This document shows, one piece after another, positions 40,475 through 51,584 of a stretch of 64,000 nt of DNA. Position 1 is the stretch's first letter. The number at the start of each line of letters is the position of its first letter. The stretch is taken from positions 2,046,001 through 2,110,000 of the forward strand of contig NZ_CP113097.1 of assembly GCF_026625125.1 (NCBI RefSeq), in the 5' to 3' direction. The position numbers and the translations under genes are program-made. The notes beneath the pieces are model-generated. The model saw only the letters and a list, made by a program, of their open reading frames with translations, searched no databases and had not been told where the DNA came from. This stretch comes from Pseudomonas putida (GTDB taxonomy: Bacteria; Pseudomonadota; Gammaproteobacteria; Pseudomonadales; Pseudomonadaceae).

Positions 40475-42868
40475 ATGAATGTCAGGGGCCAGGGAGGACC
40501 CGGCAATGGTTGGAATGCGTGTGTGAAATGGCTGGCGCGGGCGACACGCCGCTGGTACCTGGGGCTGGCGCTCATCGGCCCCGGCCTGGCGGTGGCCGAC
40601 GAGCTGCCGCCGCCGCCCACCGAGGCCGCCGCCATTGCCGACGCCACACTGTATCTGGACCTGCTGGTGAACCAGGTGCCCAGGGCTGAGCTGGTGCCGG
40701 TGCAGCAGCGCGCCGGAGGGCTGTTCCTCGACAGCCAGGTGTTGCGCGCTGCCGGCATCGCCCTGCCGGGCAACCCGCAAGGCGAGGTGGCCCTGGATGC
40801 CATCGCGGGCCTGCACAGCGACTACGACAGCCAGAACCAGCGCCTGCTGCTGCAAGTGCCACCGGCCTGGCTCCCGGACCAGCAGGTCGGCGACCGTAAC
40901 CTGTATCCGGCCAGCGATGCACGCAGCAGTTTCGGCGCGCTGTTCAACTATGACCTGTACCTGAACGACACCGACGAGGGGGGTACTTACCTGGCAGCCT
41001 GGAATGAGCTGCGCCTGTTCGACAGTTGGGGCACATTTGCCACCACCGGCCAGTGGCGGCAGTCGTTCAACGGTGCTGCGGCCGACGACAGCCGTCAGGG
41101 CTTTTTGCGCTACGACACCACCTGGCGCTTCACCGACGAGCAGCGCCTGCTGACTTACGAAGCGGGCGACTTCGTCACCGGTGCGTTGCCCTGGACCAGT
41201 TCGGTGCGGGTGGGCGGCCTGCAACTGTCGCGTGACTTTGCCGCCCGCCCGGACCTGGTCACGTATCCGTTGCCTGCCTTCGCGGGGGAGGCGGCAGTGC
41301 CAACCTCGCTGGACTTGTTCATCAACGGCTACAAGTCCAGCACCACGGAGTTGCAGCCTGGCCCTTACACCCTGACCAACGTGCCGTTCATCAACGGTGC
41401 CGGCGAGGCGGTGGTGGTCACCACCGATGCCCTGGGGCGCCAGGTGTCCACCACGTTGCCGTTCTACGTCACCAGCAGCCTGCTGCAAAAAGGCCTGTCG
41501 GATTTCTCCATGGCCGCCGGCAGCCTGCGCCGTGACTATGCCGTGCGCGACTTCAGCTACGGGCCTGGCGTCGCCTCGGCCAGCCTGCGCCATGGCGTCA
41601 GCGATGCCTTCACCCTCGAAAGCCATGTCGAAACCGCAGAATCGTTGCTGCTTGGCGGTTTGGGCGCGAATGTGCGACTGGGCACTTTCGGCGTACTGAA
41701 CGCTGCCGTAGCCCAGAGCCAGTACGACGGTGAAAAGGGCCACCAGGTCGCCCTCGGCTATCAGTACAACAGCCAGCCCTTCGGTTTCAGCTATCAGCGT
41801 TTGCAGCGCCATGATGCGTACGCCGACCTGAGCCGGGTCGACAGCCCGGACCTGCAATTGAGCCAGCGCAGCGAACAGGTCACCCTCAGCCTCAACCTGG
41901 AACGCTTCGGCAGCCTTGGCGCGGGCTACTTCGATGTGCGCGCCGGTGACGGCTCACGCACCCGCCTGATCAACCTCAGTTGGAGCAAGCCGCTGTGGGG
42001 CAACAGCAGTGTCTACCTGTCGGCCAACCGCGAGGTCGGCGACAGCCAGTGGGCGGTGCAGGCGCAATGGGTGATCCCGATCGACTTCAGCGGCACCCTG
42101 GCGGTGAGCATGGAGCGCAGCAAGGAAGGCGAGGACCTGCAGCGGGTCAACTTCAGCCGCGCGGTGCCGGTGGGCGGCGGTGTCGGCTACAACCTTGGCT
42201 ACGCCACCGGAGGTGATCGTGATGCCTACCGCCAGGCGGACGCCACCTGGCGCCTGCAGTCGGTGCAATTGCAGGCCGGCGCGTATGGCAGCAGCGGTGA
42301 GATGACCCGCTGGGCCGACGCCAGCGGCTCGCTGGTGTGGATGGACGCCGGGGTGTTTGCCGCCAATCGTATCGACGATGCCTTTGTGGTGGTCAGCACC
42401 GGCGGCTATGCCGATGTGCCCGTGCGTTACGAAAATCAGGAGATCGGCCGCACCGACCGCAACGGCCACCTGCTGGTGCCGTACAGCAGCGGCTACTACC
42501 GCGGCAAGTACGAGATCGATCCCATGGATCTGCCGCCCGATGTGCTCGCGTCACAGGTGGAGCAGCGGGTCGCGGTGCGCCGTGGCAGCGGCTACTTGCT
42601 GGAATTCCCGCTCAAGCGCGTGCTGGCGGCGAGCATCGAGCTGGTCGATGGCAACCAGCAGCCGCTCAAGCTGGGCAGTACGGTCAGCCACCGTGAAAGT
42701 GGCAGCCAGGCGGTGGTGGGTTGGGACGGGCTGGTCTATCTGGAAAACCTCTCGGCGCATAACCAGCTGCAGGTCAGGTTGGAGGGAGGAGGGCAGTGTC
42801 AGGTCGAATTCGACTTGCCGCAGGCAGAAGGCTCGATCCCGTTGATCGGCCCTCTGGTGTGCCGATGA
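40475..42868 (+). CDS. csuD: Outer membrane usher (CsuD-like)
   Basis: 797-residue fimbrial usher. Domains: N-terminal periplasmic domain after the signal region (LYLDLLVNQVPRAELVPVQQRAG), 24-strand beta-barrel with plug (SLDLFINGYKSSTTELQPGPYTLTNVPFINGAGEAVVVTTDALGRQ), and C-terminal domains ending VEFDLPQAEGSIPLIGPLVCR, with the Cys pair of the last domain. The start at 40475 (ATG) lacks a good ribosome site; a GTG at 40523 preceding KWLARATRRWYLGLAL would give a normal signal peptide. Its stop overlaps the ATG of the tip gene. Confidence 0.9.
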   Translation: MNVRGQGGPGNGWNACVKWLARATRRWYLGLALIGPGLAVADELPPPPTEAAAIADATLYLDLLVNQVPRAELVPVQQRAGGLFLDSQVLRAAGIALPGNPQGEVALDAIAGLHSDYDSQNQRLLLQVPPAWLPDQQVGDRNLYPASDARSSFGALFNYDLYLNDTDEGGTYLAAWNELRLFDSWGTFATTGQWRQSFNGAAADDSRQGFLRYDTTWRFTDEQRLLTYEAGDFVTGALPWTSSVRVGGLQLSRDFAARPDLVTYPLPAFAGEAAVPTSLDLFINGYKSSTTELQPGPYTLTNVPFINGAGEAVVVTTDALGRQVSTTLPFYVTSSLLQKGLSDFSMAAGSLRRDYAVRDFSYGPGVASASLRHGVSDAFTLESHVETAESLLLGGLGANVRLGTFGVLNAAVAQSQYDGEKGHQVALGYQYNSQPFGFSYQRLQRHDAYADLSRVDSPDLQLSQRSEQVTLSLNLERFGSLGAGYFDVRAGDGSRTRLINLSWSKPLWGNSSVYLSANREVGDSQWAVQAQWVIPIDFSGTLAVSMERSKEGEDLQRVNFSRAVPVGGGVGYNLGYATGGDRDAYRQADATWRLQSVQLQAGAYGSSGEMTRWADASGSLVWMDAGVFAANRIDDAFVVVSTGGYADVPVRYENQEIGRTDRNGHLLVPYSSGYYRGKYEIDPMDLPPDVLASQVEQRVAVRRGSGYLLEFPLKRVLAASIELVDGNQQPLKLGSTVSHRESGSQAVVGWDGLVYLENLSAHNQLQVRLEGGGQCQVEFDLPQAEGSIPLIGPLVCR

Positions 42869-43836
42869 GCAAGGGGTTGCGCGGCCTGCTGATCGGCATG
42901 CTGGCGCTGCCGGCGGGGTCGGCCTGGGCGTTATGTTCGTCCGTGGCCACTGCACCAGCGGCGTTCGGCACCGTCAACTCGACCCTGGTGCGCACCGCCA
43001 TCCAGAGTGCCTCCACCACCAATGCGGGTTTGCAGTGCACCGGGTCGTTGTTGTCCCTGCTAGTGAGCAGTGACCACTTCTACCTCACCATCACCTCCGC
43101 TACCAGCGGGCTGGTGGGGCCGACCGGGGATGTCATCCCCTATACGATCTATGCCAATAATACGACCAGCTACCCCATCACTCGCGGCGCCCAGTTCGAT
43201 TTCGCGCGCAACGGCCTGATCGACGCCCTGGGCCTGCTCAATGGCAACTCCCCGAAGTCTGTGCCGGTGTACCTGAAGACTTCGGTTGGCGCCAACGTGG
43301 CGGCTGGCGTCTATACCGAGACGCTGAACCTTGCCTGGGTCTGGAACTACTGCTCAGGCATTGGCCTGGGCAATCTGTGCCTGGGGCGCGACACGGGTTC
43401 GGGTAACCAGACCCTCACGGTGAGCCTGACGGTGAGTAATGACTGCCAGATATCGACGCCCACCATCAGCTTTGGCAGTGCGCCGGTAGTGGCGGGGTTC
43501 GGCACGGTGAACCAGAGCGTGAACCTGTCCTGTACCAAGGGCAGCAGCTACACGGTCGGGCTGGATGACGGACAGAATGCAGCAGGCGGGCGTCGGAGGA
43601 TGAAGTCTGCTGCCAACAACTACCTGGCCTACGACATCTTCAAAAGCGCGGGCGCCGTACGGTGGGGAGCCGTGGGCAGCGCGCGGCGCTCGAGCAGCGA
43701 TGCCAATGTCAACCCCGGGGCGGGGACTGGCACGGGTAGCCAGGTGTTCAACTACAACGCCAAGGTCTACACCGACCAGGCGACACCGCCGGCGGCGACC
43801 TATACCGACAATGTGATACTCGATGTGCAGTTTTGA
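42865..43836 (+). CDS. csuE: Csu-type pilus tip adhesin, two spore coat U domains (CsuE-like)
   Basis: 323-residue exported protein, signal peptide MSKGLRGLLIGMLALPAGSAWA. Two SCPU domains in tandem: the N-terminal adhesin-like domain (about 24-180) and the C-terminal pilin-like domain (from SNDCQISTPTISFGSAP to YTDNVILDVQF). This is the CsuE layout; in Acinetobacter the tip domain exposes hydrophobic loops that stick to plastics. The ATG overlaps the usher TGA (ATGA), so the two are coupled. It is the last gene of the pilus operon. Confidence 0.88.
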   Translation: MSKGLRGLLIGMLALPAGSAWALCSSVATAPAAFGTVNSTLVRTAIQSASTTNAGLQCTGSLLSLLVSSDHFYLTITSATSGLVGPTGDVIPYTIYANNTTSYPITRGAQFDFARNGLIDALGLLNGNSPKSVPVYLKTSVGANVAAGVYTETLNLAWVWNYCSGIGLGNLCLGRDTGSGNQTLTVSLTVSNDCQISTPTISFGSAPVVAGFGTVNQSVNLSCTKGSSYTVGLDDGQNAAGGRRRMKSAANNYLAYDIFKSAGAVRWGAVGSARRSSSDANVNPGAGTGTGSQVFNYNAKVYTDQATPPAATYTDNVILDVQF

Positions 43837-43838
43837 CT

Positions 43839-43881
43839 GTGCAGGCCTTTCCGCGGGCTTGCCCCGAGAAAAGGCCTGCAC
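43839..43881. terminator. Hairpin between convergent csuE and M14 peptidase genes
   Basis: Perfect 12-bp stem GTGCAGGCCTTT / AAAGGCCTGCAC with a 19-nt loop. It lies exactly between the two convergent stops, so a bidirectional terminator role is likely even though the T-tract is short. Confidence 0.6.
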
Positions 43882-43884
43882 TGA

Positions 43885-45033
43885 TCAGCGCAAGTCGTCA
43901 GCCATCTTCAGCAAGGTTTCCAGCACCGCCCCTGCCAATGCCTTGGACCGCGCTCCCGACCAGCCGGTCTTCGGGTTGGGGGCATCGTCATGGTCTTTGA
44001 ACGGCATCTCCAGGGTCAGCGACAGGCAGTCGTACGCCATGCCCACCGCATTGCACGCCAGTGTCGTATTGGCCTTCCCCGGCTCATCGCGGGTATAGCC
44101 ATGCACGGTCTGGAAGTCAGGCGTGATGCTGCACAAGGTGCTACGGAACTGCTCCTCCAGCCTGGCCAGGCGCGTCGTATAGCCGGGGTTGCCCTCGCAG
44201 GCTGCCGTGAACACATGCGGGATTTCTTCATCCCCATGCACATCGATGAACGCATCCACCCCGTACTGCTTCATCTGCGCCTGGGCAAAGAACACCTCCG
44301 GGCTCGCTTCGACGCTGGCGTCCTGCCAGGCCCGGTTGAGGTCCTGGCCCTTGAAGTTGGTGCGCAGGTGGCCGAGAAAGGCGCCATCGGGGTTCATGTT
44401 GGGAATCAGGTACAGGTCAGCCTTGGCCAGCAATTGCTGGACGATGGCGTCATTGCTTTGCAGCCGGTCGATCACCCCCTCCATGAACCACTCGGCCATG
44501 TGCTCGCCCGGGTGCTGCTGGGCGATCAGCCAGAGCTTGCGCTTGCCTGCGGCCCCGTCGCCTGCGCGCAACAGTGGTATGTCGCGGCCTTGCACGCTAC
44601 GGCCATGGGCCAGTAACTCGACACCGGGAATCTGCTGGGCACGTTCGATCAACTGGTTGTGGCGGGCACGCGGGTAGGGCTCGAAGTAGGCGAACCAGAT
44701 CTGCTCTTGCGCGGCTTCCACTTCAAAGGCCAGCGCCTTGCCATCGAACTGGCTGGGCACACGGAACCAGGTTTGCTGGTCGTAGGAAGCCACGGCGTTG
44801 TAGCCGTCCCAGGCGTTCTTGTAGGAAGACTCGCTGGCGTTGTCCAAGCTGAAGCGATGAACCTGGCCGGGCGTGAGGCCGCTGACCTTAAAGTGGAACC
44901 ACTGGAAGTGGCCGCTGTGGGTGTCCGGGCGAATGGCCAGGTGGACCCGGGCAGGGTTGCTGGCATCCAGTACCTGGATGTTGCCGGAATCGAAAGCGCA
45001 GTCGATTTGCAGAGGGGACAGCGTCACGGTCAT
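43885..45033 (-). CDS. M14 family zinc carboxypeptidase (cytosolic carboxypeptidase-like)
   Basis: 382-residue peptidase. An N-terminal beta-sandwich domain (IDCAFDSGNIQVLDASNPARVHLAIRPDTHSGHFQWFHFKVSG) typical of the CCP/Nna1 branch precedes the catalytic domain. Zinc ligands are in QQHPGEHMAEW (His and Glu) and DVHGDEEIPHVF (His); the catalytic Glu is in LTLEMPFKD. No signal peptide, so cytoplasmic. Eukaryotic relatives trim polyglutamate side chains; the bacterial substrate is unknown. The ATG at 45033 is chosen because it begins MTVTLSPLQIDCAF; AGGAG lies 9 nt upstream. Confidence 0.88.
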   Translation of the reverse strand: MTVTLSPLQIDCAFDSGNIQVLDASNPARVHLAIRPDTHSGHFQWFHFKVSGLTPGQVHRFSLDNASESSYKNAWDGYNAVASYDQQTWFRVPSQFDGKALAFEVEAAQEQIWFAYFEPYPRARHNQLIERAQQIPGVELLAHGRSVQGRDIPLLRAGDGAAGKRKLWLIAQQHPGEHMAEWFMEGVIDRLQSNDAIVQQLLAKADLYLIPNMNPDGAFLGHLRTNFKGQDLNRAWQDASVEASPEVFFAQAQMKQYGVDAFIDVHGDEEIPHVFTAACEGNPGYTTRLARLEEQFRSTLCSITPDFQTVHGYTRDEPGKANTTLACNAVGMAYDCLSLTLEMPFKDHDDAPNPKTGWSGARSKALAGAVLETLLKMADDLR

Positions 45034-45360
45034 TGGCGTGGCTCCTTGGGCTTTGTTGTGGGGGTACTGTACACCCCTCGTGAGGGAGGCTGTGTACAAA
45101 AACAGCACCCACGATGATTTCCTGTTGTTGAAAAGTTAATGGCTGGCTTGAGTACGCAAGTACTTGAACGCGGTCTGACGGGGGCTAATGGCGTAACGGC
45201 ACGATGTCGGGCTCAAAAGTCCTACACGTTTTTGGGATATTTCATTGAGCAACTCCGCTTGTGTATCTTGCCGGTGTGGTTTCGTATATGGCCTGAAAAA
45301 GTGATGCAACGCTTCGGCGTACTGCTCAGCGCCCTGTGGTCAGAAACCGGAGTTTGTGGC
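45034..45360. other. Spacer of about 330 nt between the M14 peptidase and MFS genes
   Basis: This divergent region is lower in GC than its surroundings. A frame open with the MFS gene runs through it but has no similarity to transporter N-termini, so I read it as promoter and leader DNA. GGAG at 45350 serves the GTG at 45361. I see no clear palindrome or Fur box. Confidence 0.5.
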
Positions 45361-46536
45361 GTGCCTGCTAAAACTACTGCCCTATCGATTTTGCTGGTTC
45401 TTATTAGTCTGCTGGGTGTATTCCCGCTCGATGTGATTTTGCCTTCTGTTGCGCACATGGCTGAGTATTTTGCAGTCGATACAAAACGCATTGCCTATTC
45501 GGTGAGTTTATTTGCACTGGGTGTGGCGTTATCCCAAGCGGTGATCGGCCCGCTTTCCGATTGCGTGGGAAGAAAGCGCTTGCTGATCGCGGGGCTCCTG
45601 CTGGGCATCGGGGGGGCAATCGGGTGCCTGCGCGCCGTACACTATGAGACCTTCATGGTGTTCCGCCTGTTGCAGGCCATGGGCTGTGGCTGTTTCGTAC
45701 TAAGCCAAGCGCTGGTGCAGGACAGTTACAGTGGCCAACAGCGCGATGCGATGCGAATCCTTCTGACCAGTGCAAGCGGTGTCTTTATTGCGTTGTCGCC
45801 GTTGGCAGGCAGTGTGCTTCAGCACTATGGCGGGTGGAAGGCAAGTTTTCAGGTGTTTGTCATGCTGGCAACAGGGGTGCTGTTACTTTGTTTTATCTTG
45901 TTGGAGGACACTGGAGCCTCTCGTTATCGAGGCGGTTTATTGCAGGGCTATTGCCAGGTGCTGAAAGACAGAACGTTCCTTGTGTATTCGCTGTTTTCCT
46001 GTTTGGCATTTGCCTGTCATTTTTCATTTGTCGTCGTATCTCCCTTGTTATTGATGGGGCGGCTAGGGTTGACGGAGTTCGCCTTCTCCGTGGTGTTTCT
46101 GCTCTATGGGTTGGCCTACATGGTCGGCGGTGTCATTGCCAATAAGCTGAATCGAAGGCTGAGTACACAGGCGCAGATTGGTTGTGGGTTTGCCCTGATA
46201 GGCGCTGCGGGCGTTGCTCTGCACTTTGCTTTGTCAGGCGATGAACGGGTGCTGATCAAACTAGTGTTGCCCTTAACGATCTGCACCATCGGCACGACCA
46301 TCGTTCGCCCGGCTGCAACCACCTATGCGCTCAGTCGGCACCCCGATCGCGCAGGGACTGCTGCCTCGGTCAGCAACACATTGCTTTTTGCGTGTGGCGG
46401 GGGCGTGAGCCTGCTGGTGGCGTCCTCAGGCGAGGTGAGTTTGGCAACGAATCTGGCGGCGAGCTTTATAGCCTCTTGCCTGTCAGGCTGGCTGCTTCTC
46501 GCTTACGTGGCCGGGCGATTCAGGCACGAGCCTTGA
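45361..46536 (+). CDS. MFS transporter, Bcr/CflA-like drug/metabolite exporter
   Basis: 391-residue membrane protein with about 12 hydrophobic helices. The first loop has the MFS motif GPLSDCVGRKRLLIAG (G-x-L-x-D-x-x-GRK-x). FPLDVILPSVAHMAEYF in helix 1 and the QAMGCGCFVLSQALVQDSY segment suggest the Bcr/CflA subfamily. The GTG at 45361 is preceded by GGAG at 7 nt and gives a normal MFS length. Codon use is visibly less GC-rich than in neighbouring genes (many TTG, TTT, GTA), hinting at transfer. It converges on the iron-regulated sigma4/FecR-like gene, so siderophore or iron-linked export is possible but unproven. Confidence 0.82.
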   Translation: MPAKTTALSILLVLISLLGVFPLDVILPSVAHMAEYFAVDTKRIAYSVSLFALGVALSQAVIGPLSDCVGRKRLLIAGLLLGIGGAIGCLRAVHYETFMVFRLLQAMGCGCFVLSQALVQDSYSGQQRDAMRILLTSASGVFIALSPLAGSVLQHYGGWKASFQVFVMLATGVLLLCFILLEDTGASRYRGGLLQGYCQVLKDRTFLVYSLFSCLAFACHFSFVVVSPLLLMGRLGLTEFAFSVVFLLYGLAYMVGGVIANKLNRRLSTQAQIGCGFALIGAAGVALHFALSGDERVLIKLVLPLTICTIGTTIVRPAATTYALSRHPDRAGTAASVSNTLLFACGGGVSLLVASSGEVSLATNLAASFIASCLSGWLLLAYVAGRFRHEP

Positions 46537-46577
46537 TCTGCAGGTGGGCTGGCTTTGCCTCTGCCGTCCCTGACGGC

Positions 46578-47093
46578 TTATGCCCAGTAACCAAACAGCA
46601 CCAGCGCCGCCACGCTCAGCCCTACTGCAATCGAGCAGCCACCCAACGAAATCGCCGCTCGGCCTTGCCGATACCAGCCATCGTGGCCCAGCTCCCGTGC
46701 TGGGGCGAGCAGGCTGCGCCAGCGCAGTTCGGTGTCGTGGAAGGCTTGCAGGTGCGTTGGATCGGCGTCCAGCCAGCGTCGAAAATCAATGCGCTCGCAG
46801 GTAGTGACCTCGGGGCTCTGCAGCCGCACGTACCATTGGCCGGCAACGCTCGCCACGGCATCACCGTGGGGCCGTGCCGTTTGCAGGGCCTGGTTCATGT
46901 GCCGTTCGATGCTCAGCAAGGGCAAATCGAGGCGCGTGGCGATGCTGGCGTAGTCCAGATGGTCCAGGCGGTTGAGCAGGAACACTTGCTGAACCCGGCG
47001 TGGCAAGCGCTTGAGCCCATGCAGCAGGGCAGCTTCGGCGTCGTGGCCAGCGGTGGGTGTTGGATGCTCAACAGGCAGCAGCAGGCGGCTCAT
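46578..47093 (-). CDS. Sigma-70 region 4 / FecR-like DUF4880 / single-TM fusion protein, Fur-controlled
   Basis: 171-residue protein of unusual build. Residues about 22-72 (LHGLKRLPRRVQQVFLLNRL...SIERHMNQAL) match sigma-70 region 4 of FecI-type ECF sigma factors. Residues about 79-128 (GQWYVRLQSPEVTTCERIDFRRWLDADPTHLQAF) match the cytoplasmic DUF4880 domain of FecR anti-sigma factors. Residues about 147-170 form one hydrophobic helix. Sigma region 2 and the periplasmic FecR domain are both absent. The ATG at 47093 has AAGGAG 7 nt upstream, and a Fur box lies 68 nt upstream. It could be a membrane-tethered regulator or a remnant of a fecI-fecR pair that fused; the frame is intact. Confidence 0.8.
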   Translation of the reverse strand: MSRLLLPVEHPTPTAGHDAEAALLHGLKRLPRRVQQVFLLNRLDHLDYASIATRLDLPLLSIERHMNQALQTARPHGDAVASVAGQWYVRLQSPEVTTCERIDFRRWLDADPTHLQAFHDTELRWRSLLAPARELGHDGWYRQGRAAISLGGCSIAVGLSVAALVLFGYWA

Positions 47094-47160
47094 GGTCAGC
47101 TCCTTGCTCAAGAGGGCAGGGGTGGGGGCATCTTCCGTGATGCGGAAACAGAGTAGGCGA

Positions 47161-47179
47161 AACGAGATTGATTCTCAAG
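47161..47179 (-). promoter_or_regulatory. Fur box upstream of the sigma4/FecR-like gene
   Basis: Read on the minus strand the site is CTTGAGAATCAATCTCGTT, 15 of 19 matches to the usual Pseudomonas Fur consensus AATGAGAATCATTCTCATT. It lies 68 nt before the start codon, where Fur would block the promoter under iron-replete conditions. Confidence 0.75.
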
Positions 47180-47274
47180 TGCTGATTCCGCAAAGTTTTG
47201 TAATGAGCTTTCACGCCCTGAAACATTTTTGCTATCATCGCCGCCATCAACGATCTTCATTAGCCTGAAGAGCC

Positions 47275-47385
47275 AAAAAAAAGACCCGGCAAAAAGCCGG
47301 GTCAAAAACCGTGATTAGCCTGATGAGGAGATAATCTGAGAGCGACCTAAGCTCCAGGTTATCCAGCAGATCTCGCGATCAGCTG
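47275..47385 (-). ncRNA. prrF: PrrF small RNA (iron-sparing, Fur-regulated)
   Basis: About 111 nt on the minus strand. Recalled PrrF core features are present: CAGATTATCTCCTCATCAGG followed by GCTAATCACGG, a T5, then the terminator stem GACCCGGC-TTTTT-GCCGGGTC with eight T. The start is set from a promoter TTGACT (47414-47419) and TATTAT (47392-47397), 16 bp apart, which overlaps a Fur box. PrrF RNAs base-pair with mRNAs of iron-using enzymes such as SodB, aconitases and succinate dehydrogenase when iron is low, with Hfq. In P. aeruginosa two copies are in tandem; only one is seen here. The 5' third (GATCGCGAGATC) also resembles PrrF1. Confidence 0.92.
47283..47303 (-). terminator. Intrinsic terminator of PrrF
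   Basis: Perfect 8-bp stem GACCCGGC / GCCGGGTC with a five-base loop, followed on the minus strand by a T8 tract (47275-47282). Confidence 0.92.
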
Positions 47386-47390
47386 AGTGC

Positions 47391-47409
47391 AATAATAATC
47401 GTTATCATT
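47391..47409 (-). promoter_or_regulatory. Fur box overlapping the PrrF promoter
   Basis: On the minus strand AATGATAACGATTATTATT, 17 of 19 matches to AATGATAATGATTATCATT. It overlaps the -10 element and the spacer of the PrrF promoter, the arrangement expected for Fur repression. Confidence 0.88.
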
Positions 47410-47530
47410 TGCCAGTCAAATGTTTTTTCGCCTATCCGGTGAAAAAAACGGCTGAAGCACTTCCCTGTCCCGGCAATCGGGGCCTTTGCCGTTACCTGGC
47501 CATCACGTCTCTCCCTATTCCAGTTCCAGC

Positions 47531-47842
47531 CTATCGACCGCTCTGTACGGCTCGCTTGTGCTCCAACAGTGCCCTGGCCATGTCCATCATATGCATCAGT
47601 GCGAAGGTCAATTCGCGGTGGCTGCCTTCCTGATGGGTGGCGGTTTCGTGGGCGGTGGCGGCAGCGCAGCGCAGCAGGGCGATGGCGTGCTCCTGGGCCT
47701 GGTCTGCGGTGACGCCTTCGTGGAGTGTCCAGATCTTGTTGTCGATGCTGGGGCGCGGTGGGTTGGGGTTGAGGTAGTAGTCGAGGGCGCGGCGTGCGGC
47801 TTCGCTGTCGAGTTCTGTTTCGTCGTTTTTCGGTGGTTTCAT
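47531..47842 (-). CDS. DUF6124/DUF3077-like small Pseudomonas protein
   Basis: 103-residue soluble protein, MKPPKNDETELDSEAARRALDYYLNPNPPRP...VTADQAQEHAIALLRCAAATAHETATHQEGSHRELTFALMHMMDMARALLEHK. The layout (short acidic N-terminus, ARRALDYYLNP, then a helical domain with a start like "lhEGVtadqa") matches small Pseudomonas-restricted proteins annotated DUF6124, from recall. Role unknown. The start at 47842 is preferred over 47881 by family similarity, though the ribosome site is weak. It is transcribed toward PrrF. Confidence 0.72.
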   Translation of the reverse strand: MKPPKNDETELDSEAARRALDYYLNPNPPRPSIDNKIWTLHEGVTADQAQEHAIALLRCAAATAHETATHQEGSHRELTFALMHMMDMARALLEHKRAVQSGR

Positions 47843-47972
47843 CCTGATACCTGCATAAGCCAAGAGGGAAAAGGTCCGCACTGATCTTAATACCTAAAGT
47901 ATTTGTGTGCTTTATGAGAAATAATACTGAATGTTTATTGAGCGCTAGAAGGCAGTCCGTATCGTGCCAGCG

Positions 47973-48638
47973 ATGAATATGGATAAATGGATTGCCCTCG
48001 TCCGTGACCGGATGGAGGAGCTCGATATCTCCCAAGAGCAGCTCGCCGAACGCGTTGGGGTTTCCCAGGGCAGCGTGGGGCATTGGGTGAACAAGCGGCG
48101 CCAGCCCAAGGTCGAGTCGATGAACCGCGTCTTCGTCGAGCTGGGCATGCCCCACTACCACGTGAGCATGCAGCTGCGGGTACTGGGCCAGGTGGGTGAG
48201 GACGCTGGCCGCTATGTGCTGGATGAAGAGGATGACGATGTAGACCTGATGCACTACATCGTGTGTTTTCGTTACCCGGTGCGAGGCTGGGATGCGTTGG
48301 GTGAATCAGCGCCCGAGCAGGCCATGGTGTACGAGCAGACCGAGTATATGGCGCAAGGCAAAGCGTTCTGGCTGACGGTGGAGAACGATGCCATGAGTAC
48401 GGCCAGCGGCCGTAGCGTGCCGCAAGGCATGCGCATTCTGGTGGACCCGGGGCTGGAGGCTGAGCCTGGGCGGTTGGTGATTGCGCGCCAACCTGGCAAA
48501 TCGGCGATTCTCCGCGAACTGGCCGAAGAGGGCGGGCAGCGGTATCTGCGGGCGCTGAACAGCAGCTACCCGGCGTTGGTGTGTGAGGACGGATGTGAGT
48601 TTCTTGGGGTAGTCGTGCGGGCGCACGGTACCTACTAG
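47973..48638 (+). CDS. LexA/CI-like repressor with HTH and degenerate S24 domain
   Basis: 221-residue regulator. The N-terminal XRE-type helix-turn-helix is WIALVRDRMEELDISQEQLAERVGVSQGSVGHWVNKRRQPKVE. The C-terminal domain has the S24 (LexA) fold outline: FWLTVENDAMSTASGRSVPQGMRILVDP. The nucleophile position of the family motif D-S-M is Ala (D-A-M, residue 130), and the general-base Lys position appears to be Arg (AILREL, residue 171). It therefore probably cannot self-cleave and would act as a ligand- or oligomer-controlled repressor. The start could also be the GTG at 47964. Not linked to any prophage gene here. Confidence 0.8.
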   Translation: MNMDKWIALVRDRMEELDISQEQLAERVGVSQGSVGHWVNKRRQPKVESMNRVFVELGMPHYHVSMQLRVLGQVGEDAGRYVLDEEDDDVDLMHYIVCFRYPVRGWDALGESAPEQAMVYEQTEYMAQGKAFWLTVENDAMSTASGRSVPQGMRILVDPGLEAEPGRLVIARQPGKSAILRELAEEGGQRYLRALNSSYPALVCEDGCEFLGVVVRAHGTY

Positions 48639-48660
48639 ATTGTCGGGGCTGCTGTGCAGC

Positions 48661-48795
48661 CCAATCGCCGGCAAGCCGGCTCCCACATGGATCGCGCCAG
48701 CTTTTAGAAGTTGGGCAGGACGGTGGCTTCCACGGGTAAAGCGCAGGCCTGAAGCACTGCGCGGTCGCGGTGGGAGCCGGCTTGCCGGCGATTGG
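48661..48795. repeat. Inverted REP pair with perfect 25-bp arms
   Basis: CCAATCGCCGGCAAGCCGGC... at 48661-48685 is matched exactly by its complement at 48771-48795, 85 nt apart. It lies between the ends of the convergent repressor and liuD genes. The intervening DNA shows no gene. Confidence 0.88.
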
Positions 48796-48819
48796 GCCGC
48801 GAAGCGGCCCTTGCTTGCA

Positions 48820-50772
48820 TCACTCCACCAGTTCGACCAGCACCGTCCCTTCGCTGACCATATCCCCTTCCTGGCAGAACAACGCCTTCACCGTCCCGCC
48901 GTGCGGAGCGCGAATGCTGTGCTCCATTTTCATCGCCTCCAGCACCACCAGCGCAGTCCCTGCTTCCACCGCCTGGCCAGGCTCCACCAGCACCCGCACG
49001 ATGCTGCCATTCATGGGCGCACCCAGGCCGCCCTGATGGCTGTGGCTGGCTTCGGCCTCGGCGATCGGGTCGAAGGCCTCGATGGCATGCATTTCACCCT
49101 CCCAGCGCAGGTACAGCGTGCCACCTCGGCGCACCGCCAGATATCGCCGGCGCACGCCGCCTTCATCATGCCCGAGCTGTTCGTCGTCCAGCCGCCAGGC
49201 CGAGACGGCACCGTGCTCGAACGCAATCGCCTGGCGCTCACCGCCACTGCGCAGGTGCAAGCTGCTATGCGCCGGCAGGCCAAGGCGCAACCCTGAGCGC
49301 TCAGCCCACGGCGAGCCGCTGTCGTCGTCACGCTCACGGGGCGCCTGGCCCCGTAGCCAGGCTTCACCTGCGGCTTGCCAGAAGCCTGCGGGCAAAGGCT
49401 GCGGCGCCGGCAGCAGTACGTCCTGATGGCGTGGAATGAAGCCTGTATCCAGCTCGGCCGCCGCGAATGCGGGGTGGGCGAGGATGCGGCGCAGGAAGGC
49501 GATGTTGGTCTTCAACCCACCGATGGCGAACTCGTCCAGCATCGCCAGCAAGCGCAGGCGGGCCTGTTCGCGGTTTTCGCCCCAGGCGATCAGCTTGCCC
49601 AGCATAGGGTCATAGAAAGATGAGACCTCGTCCCCCTCGCTTACCCCGCTGTCCACCCGACGACCTTCGCCAGGTGCCGACTCGCGGTACAGCGTCAGGG
49701 TGCCGGTGGCCGGCAGGAAGTCGTTGGCCGGGTCTTCGGCGTAGAGGCGCACTTCGATGGCATGGCCGATCAGCGGCACCTGGGCCTGGGTAATCGGCAG
49801 TGGTTCGCCACAGGCGACGCGGATCTGCCAGGCCACCAGGTCCAGGCCGGTGATGGCTTCGGTCACCGGGTGCTCGACCTGCAGGCGGGTATTCATCTCC
49901 ATGAAGAAGAACTCGCCACGGGCATCGAGCAGAAACTCAACGGTGCCGGCACCGACATAACCGATGGCCTGGGCGGCGCGCACCGCCGCTTCGCCCATGG
50001 CTTGCCGCAACTGAGGGGAAAGCCCCGGCGCCGGCGCTTCCTCGACCACCTTCTGATGGCGGCGCTGGATCGAGCAGTCGCGCTCATTCAGGTACAGGCA
50101 GTTGCCGTGCTGATCGGCGAACACCTGGATCTCCACGTGGCGGGGCTTGAGCACGTACTTTTCCACCAGCATGCGCGCGTCGCCGAACGAAGACTGCGCT
50201 TCACGCTGGGCCGAGGCGAGGGCGTCGGCCAGCTGGCTTTCGTCCTCGACCACTTTCATGCCCTTGCCGCCCCCCCCGGCGCTGGCCTTGAGCAACACCG
50301 GGTAGCCGATGCGCTCGGCAGCGGCGCGGAAGGTTTCCAGGTCCTGGGCGTCGCCGTGATAACCCGGCACCAGCGGTACGCCGGCCGCTTCCATCAGTGC
50401 CTTGGCCGCTGATTTGCTGCCCATGGCATCGATGGCGCTGGCCGGCGGGCCAAGGAAGATCAGCCCGGCGTCCTCGATGGCACGAGCAAACCCTGCGTTT
50501 TCGGACAGAAAACCATACCCCGGGTGAATGGCCTGAGCGCCGCTGGCTTTGGCCGCAGCGAGCAGTTTGTCGATCACCAGGTAGCTGTCAGCGGCCTTGC
50601 TGCCCCCCAGCTCGACACGGATATCCGCTTCGCGGCTGTGGCGGGCGTCGCGGTCGGTTGCACTGTGCACGGCCACGGTGGTCAGGCCCATGGCCTTGGC
50701 GGTACGCATCACCCGGCAGGCGATTTCGCCACGGTTGGCGACCAGCAGGGTGGTCAATGGCGTGCGGCTCAT
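48820..50772 (-). CDS. liuD: Methylcrotonyl-CoA carboxylase, biotin-containing alpha subunit
   Basis: 650-residue biotin-dependent carboxylase subunit. The biotin carboxylase domain (about 1-450) has the ATP-grasp glycine loop KASAGGGGKGMKVV and EMNTRLQVEHPVTE. A BT-like middle region follows, then the biotin carrier domain with VVLEAMKMEHSIRAPHGG, where Lys is biotinylated. The Met-Lys-Met context and the liu neighbours make it MCC alpha, which carboxylates biotin for 3-methylcrotonyl-CoA in leucine breakdown. Its start overlaps the liuC stop by 4 nt; it is the last gene of the operon. Confidence 0.95.
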   Translation of the reverse strand: MSRTPLTTLLVANRGEIACRVMRTAKAMGLTTVAVHSATDRDARHSREADIRVELGGSKAADSYLVIDKLLAAAKASGAQAIHPGYGFLSENAGFARAIEDAGLIFLGPPASAIDAMGSKSAAKALMEAAGVPLVPGYHGDAQDLETFRAAAERIGYPVLLKASAGGGGKGMKVVEDESQLADALASAQREAQSSFGDARMLVEKYVLKPRHVEIQVFADQHGNCLYLNERDCSIQRRHQKVVEEAPAPGLSPQLRQAMGEAAVRAAQAIGYVGAGTVEFLLDARGEFFFMEMNTRLQVEHPVTEAITGLDLVAWQIRVACGEPLPITQAQVPLIGHAIEVRLYAEDPANDFLPATGTLTLYRESAPGEGRRVDSGVSEGDEVSSFYDPMLGKLIAWGENREQARLRLLAMLDEFAIGGLKTNIAFLRRILAHPAFAAAELDTGFIPRHQDVLLPAPQPLPAGFWQAAGEAWLRGQAPRERDDDSGSPWAERSGLRLGLPAHSSLHLRSGGERQAIAFEHGAVSAWRLDDEQLGHDEGGVRRRYLAVRRGGTLYLRWEGEMHAIEAFDPIAEAEASHSHQGGLGAPMNGSIVRVLVEPGQAVEAGTALVVLEAMKMEHSIRAPHGGTVKALFCQEGDMVSEGTVLVELVE

Positions 50773-51584
50773 GGGCGCAGCTCCTTGTTGGGCTCGGTTT
50801 GCCAGGCGGGGCGACGTTTTTCCAGGAAGGCGCGCAGGCCCTCCTGGCCTTCGGCGCTGACCCGGATCCGGGCAATGGCGTTTTCGCAGTAGCGGCGCAG
50901 GGCAGGGCTGAGCTCACCGTCGTCGACTTCGCGCAGCAGGTCCTTGGTGGCGCGCAGCGCTTGCGGGCTGTTTTGCAGGAGGTTGTCCACCCAGGCCTGG
51001 ACCTGCACTTCCAGCTCATCGGCCGGGTACACCTCTGCCAGCAGGCCCAACTCCCGGCCCCGTACGCCGCTGAATCGTTCGGCGGTCAAGGCATAACGGC
51101 GGGCGCTGCGCTCACCGATGGCCTTGACCACGAACGGGCTGATCACCGCCGGGGCCAGGCCGATACGCACTTCCGACAAGCACAGCTGGGCATCCTCGGC
51201 GCCGATGGCCATGTCGCAGCAACTGATCAACCCCAAGGCGCCGCCAAAGGCCGCGCCCTGCACCACGGCCAGGGTGGGAACCTTCAGGCGATGCAGGGCG
51301 TACATCAGTTCGCCCAGTTCACGGGCGTCATCCAGGTTGGTGTTGAAGTCCAGCTGTGCCGATTGCTGCATCCACGCCAGGTCTGCGCCGGCGCTGAAAT
51401 GCCGGCCACGGCCGCGCAGCAGCATGAAGCGCAGGCTGGCGTCGTCGGCCAGTTGGCCAAGGGCGACGATCAGTTCGCGAATCATCTGTGCATTGAATGC
51501 GTTGTTCTTGTCCGCCCGGTTTAGCCACAGGGTGGCGAAGCCGCGCGGGTCGCGGATCACTTCGAGGGTGTTGAAAGCGCTCAT
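50769..51584 (-). CDS. liuC: 3-methylglutaconyl-CoA hydratase
   Basis: 271-residue enoyl-CoA hydratase/isomerase family enzyme (crotonase fold). The oxyanion-hole segment is GRGRHFSAGADLAWMQ and the active-site region is VVQGAAFGGALGLISCCDMAIGAEDAQLCLSEVRIGLAPAVI. In the liu operon it hydrates 3-methylglutaconyl-CoA to HMG-CoA. It starts 3 nt after liuB ends and overlaps liuD, so the operon is tightly coupled. Confidence 0.93.
   Translation of the reverse strand: MSAFNTLEVIRDPRGFATLWLNRADKNNAFNAQMIRELIVALGQLADDASLRFMLLRGRGRHFSAGADLAWMQQSAQLDFNTNLDDARELGELMYALHRLKVPTLAVVQGAAFGGALGLISCCDMAIGAEDAQLCLSEVRIGLAPAVISPFVVKAIGERSARRYALTAERFSGVRGRELGLLAEVYPADELEVQVQAWVDNLLQNSPQALRATKDLLREVDDGELSPALRRYCENAIARIRVSAEGQEGLRAFLEKRRPAWQTEPNKELRP

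Follow-up and report, generated by a model that had tools for sequence, protein, structure and literature searches.

The closest known system to the protein described here is IutY of Pseudomonas putida (ECF243), in which one polypeptide joins FecI-type sigma and FecR-type membrane parts in an iron system (PMC5411451, PMC8999054). IutY has a region 2 and a periplasmic domain, and acts as a sigma factor once it has been cut (PMC9249621, PMC8999054). Next to it stand the FecI-FecR, FoxI-FoxR and PupI-PupR pairs. The N-terminus of FecR is reported to bind FecI region 4, and N-terminal FecR-type pieces to activate FecI, FoxI and FiuI but to inhibit FpvI and PvdS; FecR 1-59 activates FecI, and a 67-residue FpvR piece inactivates both FpvI and PvdS (PMC9249621).

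Here we describe a gene in a 64,000-nucleotide stretch of a P. putida genome (the window), whose product appears to draw its region 4 and its cytoplasmic FecR domain from a pair of the FecI-FecR kind. Unlike such pairs, it is one protein, with no region 2, no signal-receiving domain and no receptor gene among the neighbours scanned. It differs from IutY in being without region 2 and periplasmic domain and in having a DUF4880. PhyR, unlike the fusion, carries a receiver domain and is a mimic of an entire sigma factor. What the two would share is a sigma-like piece used for protein contact and not for promoter reading (PMC8999054); the PhyR sigma-like Pfam model matched three of 28 family members (best 1.4e-4), all 28 of which match Sigma70_r4_2. 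Among the openly licensed papers listed by our searches, no title described a sigma4-DUF4880 fusion. By tests of its sequence features, the fusion is neither FecI nor FecR nor IutY, and is a new form of cell-surface-signalling regulator.

Domain make-up and origin of the fusion protein

The gene occupies positions 46578..47093 of the minus strand (ATG at 47091-47093) and encodes 171 aa in an intact frame, as a sequence-only reading had proposed. By hmmscan against Pfam, residues 22-71 (46881..47030, minus strand) match Sigma-70 region 4 (PF08281, Sigma70_r4_2; E 2.6e-9, 37 bits against a cut-off of 25.7) and residues 84-122 (46728..46844, minus strand) match DUF4880, the FecR-type cytoplasmic anti-sigma domain (PF16220; E 5.7e-13, 48.9 bits against a cut-off of 25). 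Residues 150-170 (46584..46646, minus strand) form a predicted C-terminal membrane helix by AlphaFold2 and hydropathy, almost without a periplasmic tail. These three parts had been recognised by eye in that reading and are now supported by Pfam and AlphaFold2. Its remark that sigma region 2 and the periplasmic FecR domain are missing was also borne out, as hmmscan gave no match to region 2 up to E 10 and none to PF04773 in the 171 residues. With the MFS gene 41 bp from the fusion stop codon and PrrF ending 181 bp ahead of the start codon, lost sigma2 or FecR parts could not be accommodated alongside. Both Sigma70_r4_2 and DUF4880 were found in 28 of 28 members of a family set (A4), and database names of relatives include DUF4880 domain-containing protein, Sigma-70 protein and RNA polymerase sigma factor. 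The hydropathy peak of the tail helix in the window protein was 2.16 (best 19-residue segment). Across 100 family rows, tail hydropathy exceeded 1.6 in 95, the best segment ending 0-6 residues from the C-terminus, and the 15 residues preceding the helix carried a net positive charge in 90, which predicts an N-in orientation. The product is predicted to lie in the inner membrane with its N-terminus inside.

The fusion was modelled with AlphaFold2 from an alignment of 78 sequences. The model contained a block of pLDDT 88-98 over residues 21-140, reached a pTM of 0.72 and placed the last helix at 150-170. A second-clade fusion 41% identical to the window protein (L030) gave a pTM of 0.76 with the same helix order, and in the two clades both domains were mostly at pLDDT 94-98. 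These pLDDT values, taken with the pTM of both models, suggest that region 4 and DUF4880 pack against one another. With Foldseek, the region 4 part recovered sigmaE region 4 (2h27; TM 0.75 by target, probability 1.00, E 0.18) and the anti-sigma part recovered the PupR cytoplasmic domain (5cam; TM 0.83 by target, probability 1.00, E 0.92); the fusion model gave no match at E <= 0.001, the domains being recovered and the whole chain not.

The fusion begins at FecI region 4 and ends just past the FecR membrane helix. A region 4 tree of 51 rows placed it beside a clade of complete Pseudomonas FecI proteins (local support 0.69), and an anti-sigma domain tree of 48 rows beside a clade of complete Pseudomonas FecR proteins (local support 0.91). 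After midpoint rooting, the fusion rows formed one clade in both trees (support 0.79 for region 4 and 0.59 for the anti-sigma domain). Several FecI and FecR rows of the parental clades list contigs of equal length (for example 61955, 454295 and 6826062 bases), as expected for neighbours. The pair in genome G013 consists of a 159-residue FecI and a 325-residue FecR beside a frame that by eye resembles a TonB receptor, and no PrrF was found near it in 17 kb. Full-length FecI-FecR pairs of parental type were also present at L210 and L031. Since the two halves fall with the same clade of full FecI-FecR pairs, sequence and trees support a chimera that arose by fusion or deletion from one such pair. 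Sigma region 2 and the periplasmic half of FecR would have dropped out of a single fecI-fecR pair, and the remainder would be FecI region 4 joined to the FecR cytoplasmic domain and membrane helix; the timing and the DNA event are what we infer.

Distribution and genomic setting

A protein search returned 197 fusion relatives at E <= 0.001; among the 120 relatives listed, 118 held both Pfam domains and 114 were 168-174 residues long. In a scan of one genome per species, 153 places encoded relatives, and the best 80 were retained, a sample weighted to close relatives. Within these 80, the fusion frame was intact in every case (169-172 codons, ATG start) and the PrrF core lay 198-242 nt before the fusion start in 79, the exception (L156) being on a short contig. 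A match to M14 carboxypeptidase was found downstream on the same strand in 57 of the 80, in 51 of those at most 209 nt from the fusion stop. In the window, an MFS transporter gene (45139-46536) sits between the fusion and M14; an MFS match was present at 12 of the 80 named loci and at none of the ten loci L021-L030. The sequence-only reading had suggested looking for the architecture in other Pseudomonas beside TonB receptors: the architecture does occur in other Pseudomonas, and no TonB receptor was found among the eight neighbouring frames scanned in the window (42796-51584).

Matches at E <= 1e-20 were obtained in 82 of 298 Pseudomonas genomes. Those in G013, G075, G187 and G312 are parts of longer FecI/FecR-type frames, G013 and G312 having been read directly, and their removal leaves the fusion in 78 of the 298, a count taken from the match table with the loci opened for part of the 78. 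No fusion was seen in any of these four genomes in this survey, a small number. Among 20 more distant loci, 19 were fusions, with PrrF upstream in 18 of the 19. At L218 a fusion gene was found without PrrF in the 6.6 kb examined; either the gene moved or PrrF was lost.

In the window, the PrrF small RNA (47275..47419, minus strand; Rfam RF00444, 153.4 bits) lies upstream of the fusion on the same strand and has its own Fur box at 47393-47407. Both PrrF and M14 were present at all ten of the loci L021-L030. The complete order mccA, S24-type repressor, DUF6124 gene, prrF2, fusion gene and M14 was seen in L022-L026; four second-clade loci of this group have mccA and no S24 or DUF6124 match, and L021 showed only M14. 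A further 17 Pseudomonas genomes carry the mccA-prrF2 locus without the fusion gene. At 15 of these, M14 starts 193-309 nt past the PrrF core, and it was not found at the other two (L048 and L057). The sequence-only reading had held that complete separate fecI and fecR at this site in neighbouring strains would make the present copy a decayed remnant; no FecI-FecR pair was seen at the 17 loci. At four of them (L045, L047, L050 and L051), an ECF sigma frame lies 2-3 kb after the PrrF core, downstream of M14, and by eye is not FecI-like. Another 23 PrrF loci, in most cases the second copy in those same genomes, had no family member in the 8 kb covered at each.

We take PP_4070 of KT2440 to be the probable orthologue of the fusion gene, presuming that mccA is PP_4067, with which the gene order would fit. 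PP_4070 has been reported to fall together with exbB, exbD, tonB and a fecR gene (PMC7324555) and is in a list of CbrB-bound places (PMC6296734), and the main text of a paper on P. putida Rsm targets contains no match for PP_407, prrF or FecR (PMC7937890).

The conserved leader behind prrF2

A putative promoter, TTGAGA-17-TACTCT, precedes the gene (47150..47178, minus strand), and its pattern TTGAGA-17-TAnnCT recurs in 79 of 81 fusion leaders. It is overlapped by a Fur-like box (47163..47177) found with a 15-mer pattern, variants of which were seen by eye in the second clade. The box lies 69 nt before the ATG; the sequence-only reading placed it at 68 nt and proposed iron control. With up to two mismatches, TGAKAATNATTMTCA occurs at two places in the 64 kb, the fusion box and the PrrF box (47393-47407), where 0.08 was expected; none of 100 shuffled controls had two matches, the pattern having been fixed after the site was seen. 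This supports the proposed iron control; a plainer 19-mer Fur test does not, its count at the fusion being not above that of other stretches. In iron starvation, a Fur-repressed promoter just behind prrF2 probably drives the fusion.

Between promoter and start codon lies a hairpin, GCATC-ACGGAA-GATGC (47128..47143, minus strand), with the Rsm/CsrA-type motif CANGGANG in its loop; it is followed by the ribosome-binding site GCAAGGAG (47100..47107, minus strand), itself an ANGGA site that repeats the GGA core of the loop motif and present as GCAAGGA in 80 of 81 leaders. The CANGGANG motif was found in 80 of 81 leaders and the full five-pair stem in 77, compared with 2.9% and 0.9% of random 90-nt stretches of the same loci. 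The two N positions of the motif vary, and one stem pair covaries (G-C in 22, A-U in 18 and G-U in 13 of 55 rows, which were picked for having the motif). Of the 19 more distant loci, 11 have the motif by itself. In P. putida, CANGGANG has been described as the Rsm motif (PMC6849547). These conserved sites suggest Rsm control of the fusion mRNA in the clade of the window.

The same promoter is kept at 13 of the 17 prrF2 loci without the fusion (L042-L058), about 155-220 nt past the PrrF core and mostly upstream of M14; 12 of the 13 have the full CANGGANG hairpin by script, and L044 has a shifted form by eye. The survival of the leader there means either that the gene was lost and the leader remained, or that the leader has its own role, for example for M14. 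Another hairpin, CTTCAGGCTAATGAAG, lies between PrrF and the fusion (47255-47270 and 47230-47238) in 80 of 81 fusion leaders and at 15 of the 17 loci without the gene. On the plus strand it follows an extended -10-like TGCTATCAT and would expose ATTAGCCTGA, which is complementary to the PrrF stretch TCAGGCTAAT. An antisense or sponge RNA of PrrF2 from this region is possible; asPrrF RNAs are known in P. aeruginosa (PMC3902932).

Constraint on the two domains and candidate roles

For dN/dS, 580 pairs from 81 genes were compared, with 541 unsaturated pairs. The median was 0.190 for the whole gene, 0.047 for residues 27-46 of region 4, 0.110 for the anti-sigma domain, 0.194 for the tail helix, 0.311 for the recognition helix, 0.481 for the N-terminal 19 residues and 0.496 for the linker. 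Given these values, the protein is maintained, its parts unequally, and it looks like a genuine selected regulator of iron signalling and not a decayed remnant.

To compare region 4 column by column, 97 fusions were set against 103 full FecI (2 of 105 were dropped for gaps). Mean column entropy in helix 2 was 0.57 bits in the fusions and 0.74 in FecI; in the recognition turn-helix it was 1.83 against 0.63, in a FecI set whose uniformity is partly by choice, as it was gathered with the parental FecI as query, though identity reaches below 50%. The contrast between the two segments was matched by none of 20000 column permutations. FecI residues S58, S60, T61 and K64 (99-100%) are replaced mainly by P, L/A, S/T and R in the 78-sequence fusion set, T61 being retained in 29%, and R64 (93%), Q68 (91%) and P58 (82%) are conserved within that set. 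The tightest constraint falls on helix 2, where R32 and Q36 are invariant in the fusions and variable in FecI. The sequence-only view that the protein presents a -35-binding domain is not supported, the FecI-invariant recognition-helix residues being replaced or variable. For the anti-sigma domain, mean entropy was 1.06 bits in 100 fusion rows, 1.63 in all FecR rows (38 of 87 aligned well enough) and 0.57 in the few parental rows (18 of the 38). Of 32 columns invariant in parental FecR, 21 keep the same residue in at least 85% of fusions and 11 do not; the commonest residue has changed at parental-invariant columns 81, 93, 110, 121 and 136. Fusion W87 and W107 have the spacing of FecR W19 and W39, which are among the positions hit in induction-negative mutants (PMC9249621). 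With a -35-reading helix that has lost FecI conservation, a rigid helix 2 and a well-kept anti-sigma domain, the sigma piece is more likely to bind proteins than promoters. The drifting recognition-helix residues could instead mark a new DNA specificity.

Our preferred reading, which in our judgement falls slightly short of an even call, is a sigma4/anti-sigma module held at the membrane, induced by iron starvation and deaf to signals, which tunes FecI-type signalling in trans. Translation would be held by RsmA/E proteins at the conserved sites, and the protein would gather at the membrane in iron starvation. Without region 2 it should not act as a sigma factor alone, and without the periplasmic domain it cannot take a receptor signal. 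Having kept the sigma4/anti-sigma contact pair while its DNA-reading helix drifted, it may swap partners with FecI-type sigma factors or FecR-type proteins with no receptor input, and the outcome would be a signal-independent level of cell-surface signalling in starvation. If this partner exchange is right, the fusion would work like a sigma-factor mimic. Eight FecR-domain (PF04773) proteins elsewhere in its own genome are possible partners. Titrating or antagonising FecI/FecR-type partners, as already put forward from the sequence, is the best idea at present. We favour a brake; the sign is not fixed by present evidence, because the same kind of FecR fragment activates FecI yet inhibits FpvI. 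Against a module acting in trans, domains locked in cis may leave nothing for trans binding, and FecR-FecI binding is reported to be specific (PMC9249621). None of the own-genome proteins in the trees (nine sigma, six FecR) falls in the parental clade, and the 11 of 32 parental-invariant anti-sigma columns kept below 85% and the L218 locus without PrrF also count against it. A broader form of the idea seems doubtful to us: sigma-factor mimics with a tail anchor, present in roughly one in four of the Pseudomonas species sampled, would combine region 4 with its own anti-sigma domain, stand under Fur beside prrF2 and form a trans-acting hub that sets FecI-type response strength in iron starvation, as the protein counterpart of the adjoining small RNA.

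If region 4 had turned into a standard helix-turn-helix that reads a target site of its own, the fusion would be a membrane-anchored DNA-binding regulator, for which ToxR is the comparison. The predicted intact fold and the largely fixed helix consensus of the 78-sequence set (R64, Q68, P58) would suit it, but the turn and recognition helix are far more variable than in FecI in the wider set, and the recognition helix has a higher dN/dS (0.311) than any other structured part measured; we regard this reading as unlikely. In another reading, region 4 helices 1-2 would touch the beta flap and the membrane domain would occupy some of the polymerase or other sigma factors. This would account for the constraint on helix 2 and for R32 and Q36, yet there is no region 2 to hold the core and the retained anti-sigma domain would go unexplained, which makes such a polymerase modulator improbable.

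It is also improbable that the fusion imitates a cut FecR, RseP clipping it to free a soluble sigma4/anti-sigma piece by which FecI-type factors become active in the absence of siderophore: the tail helix does end 0-6 residues from the C-terminus, and short FecR and IutY derivatives are reported active without signal (PMC9249621), but cleavage is only postulated, and the activating domain may be hidden by region 4 of the same chain. Least credible is that the gene is what is left of a decaying fecI-fecR operon, or that it persists only through its position behind prrF2. The fusion is clearly derived from a fecI-fecR pair and the 17 prrF2 loci lack it, and against this stand the 80 of 80 intact frames, the low dN/dS and its presence in both of two diverged clades.

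Many FecI-FecR systems run at once in Pseudomonas, and in our assessment their balancing is poorly understood. A protein consisting of the contact pair only, conserved, probably iron-controlled and beside a central iron small RNA, would give a direct handle on their cross-talk, and the fusion would be a naturally occurring example of a sigma factor converted to protein binding.
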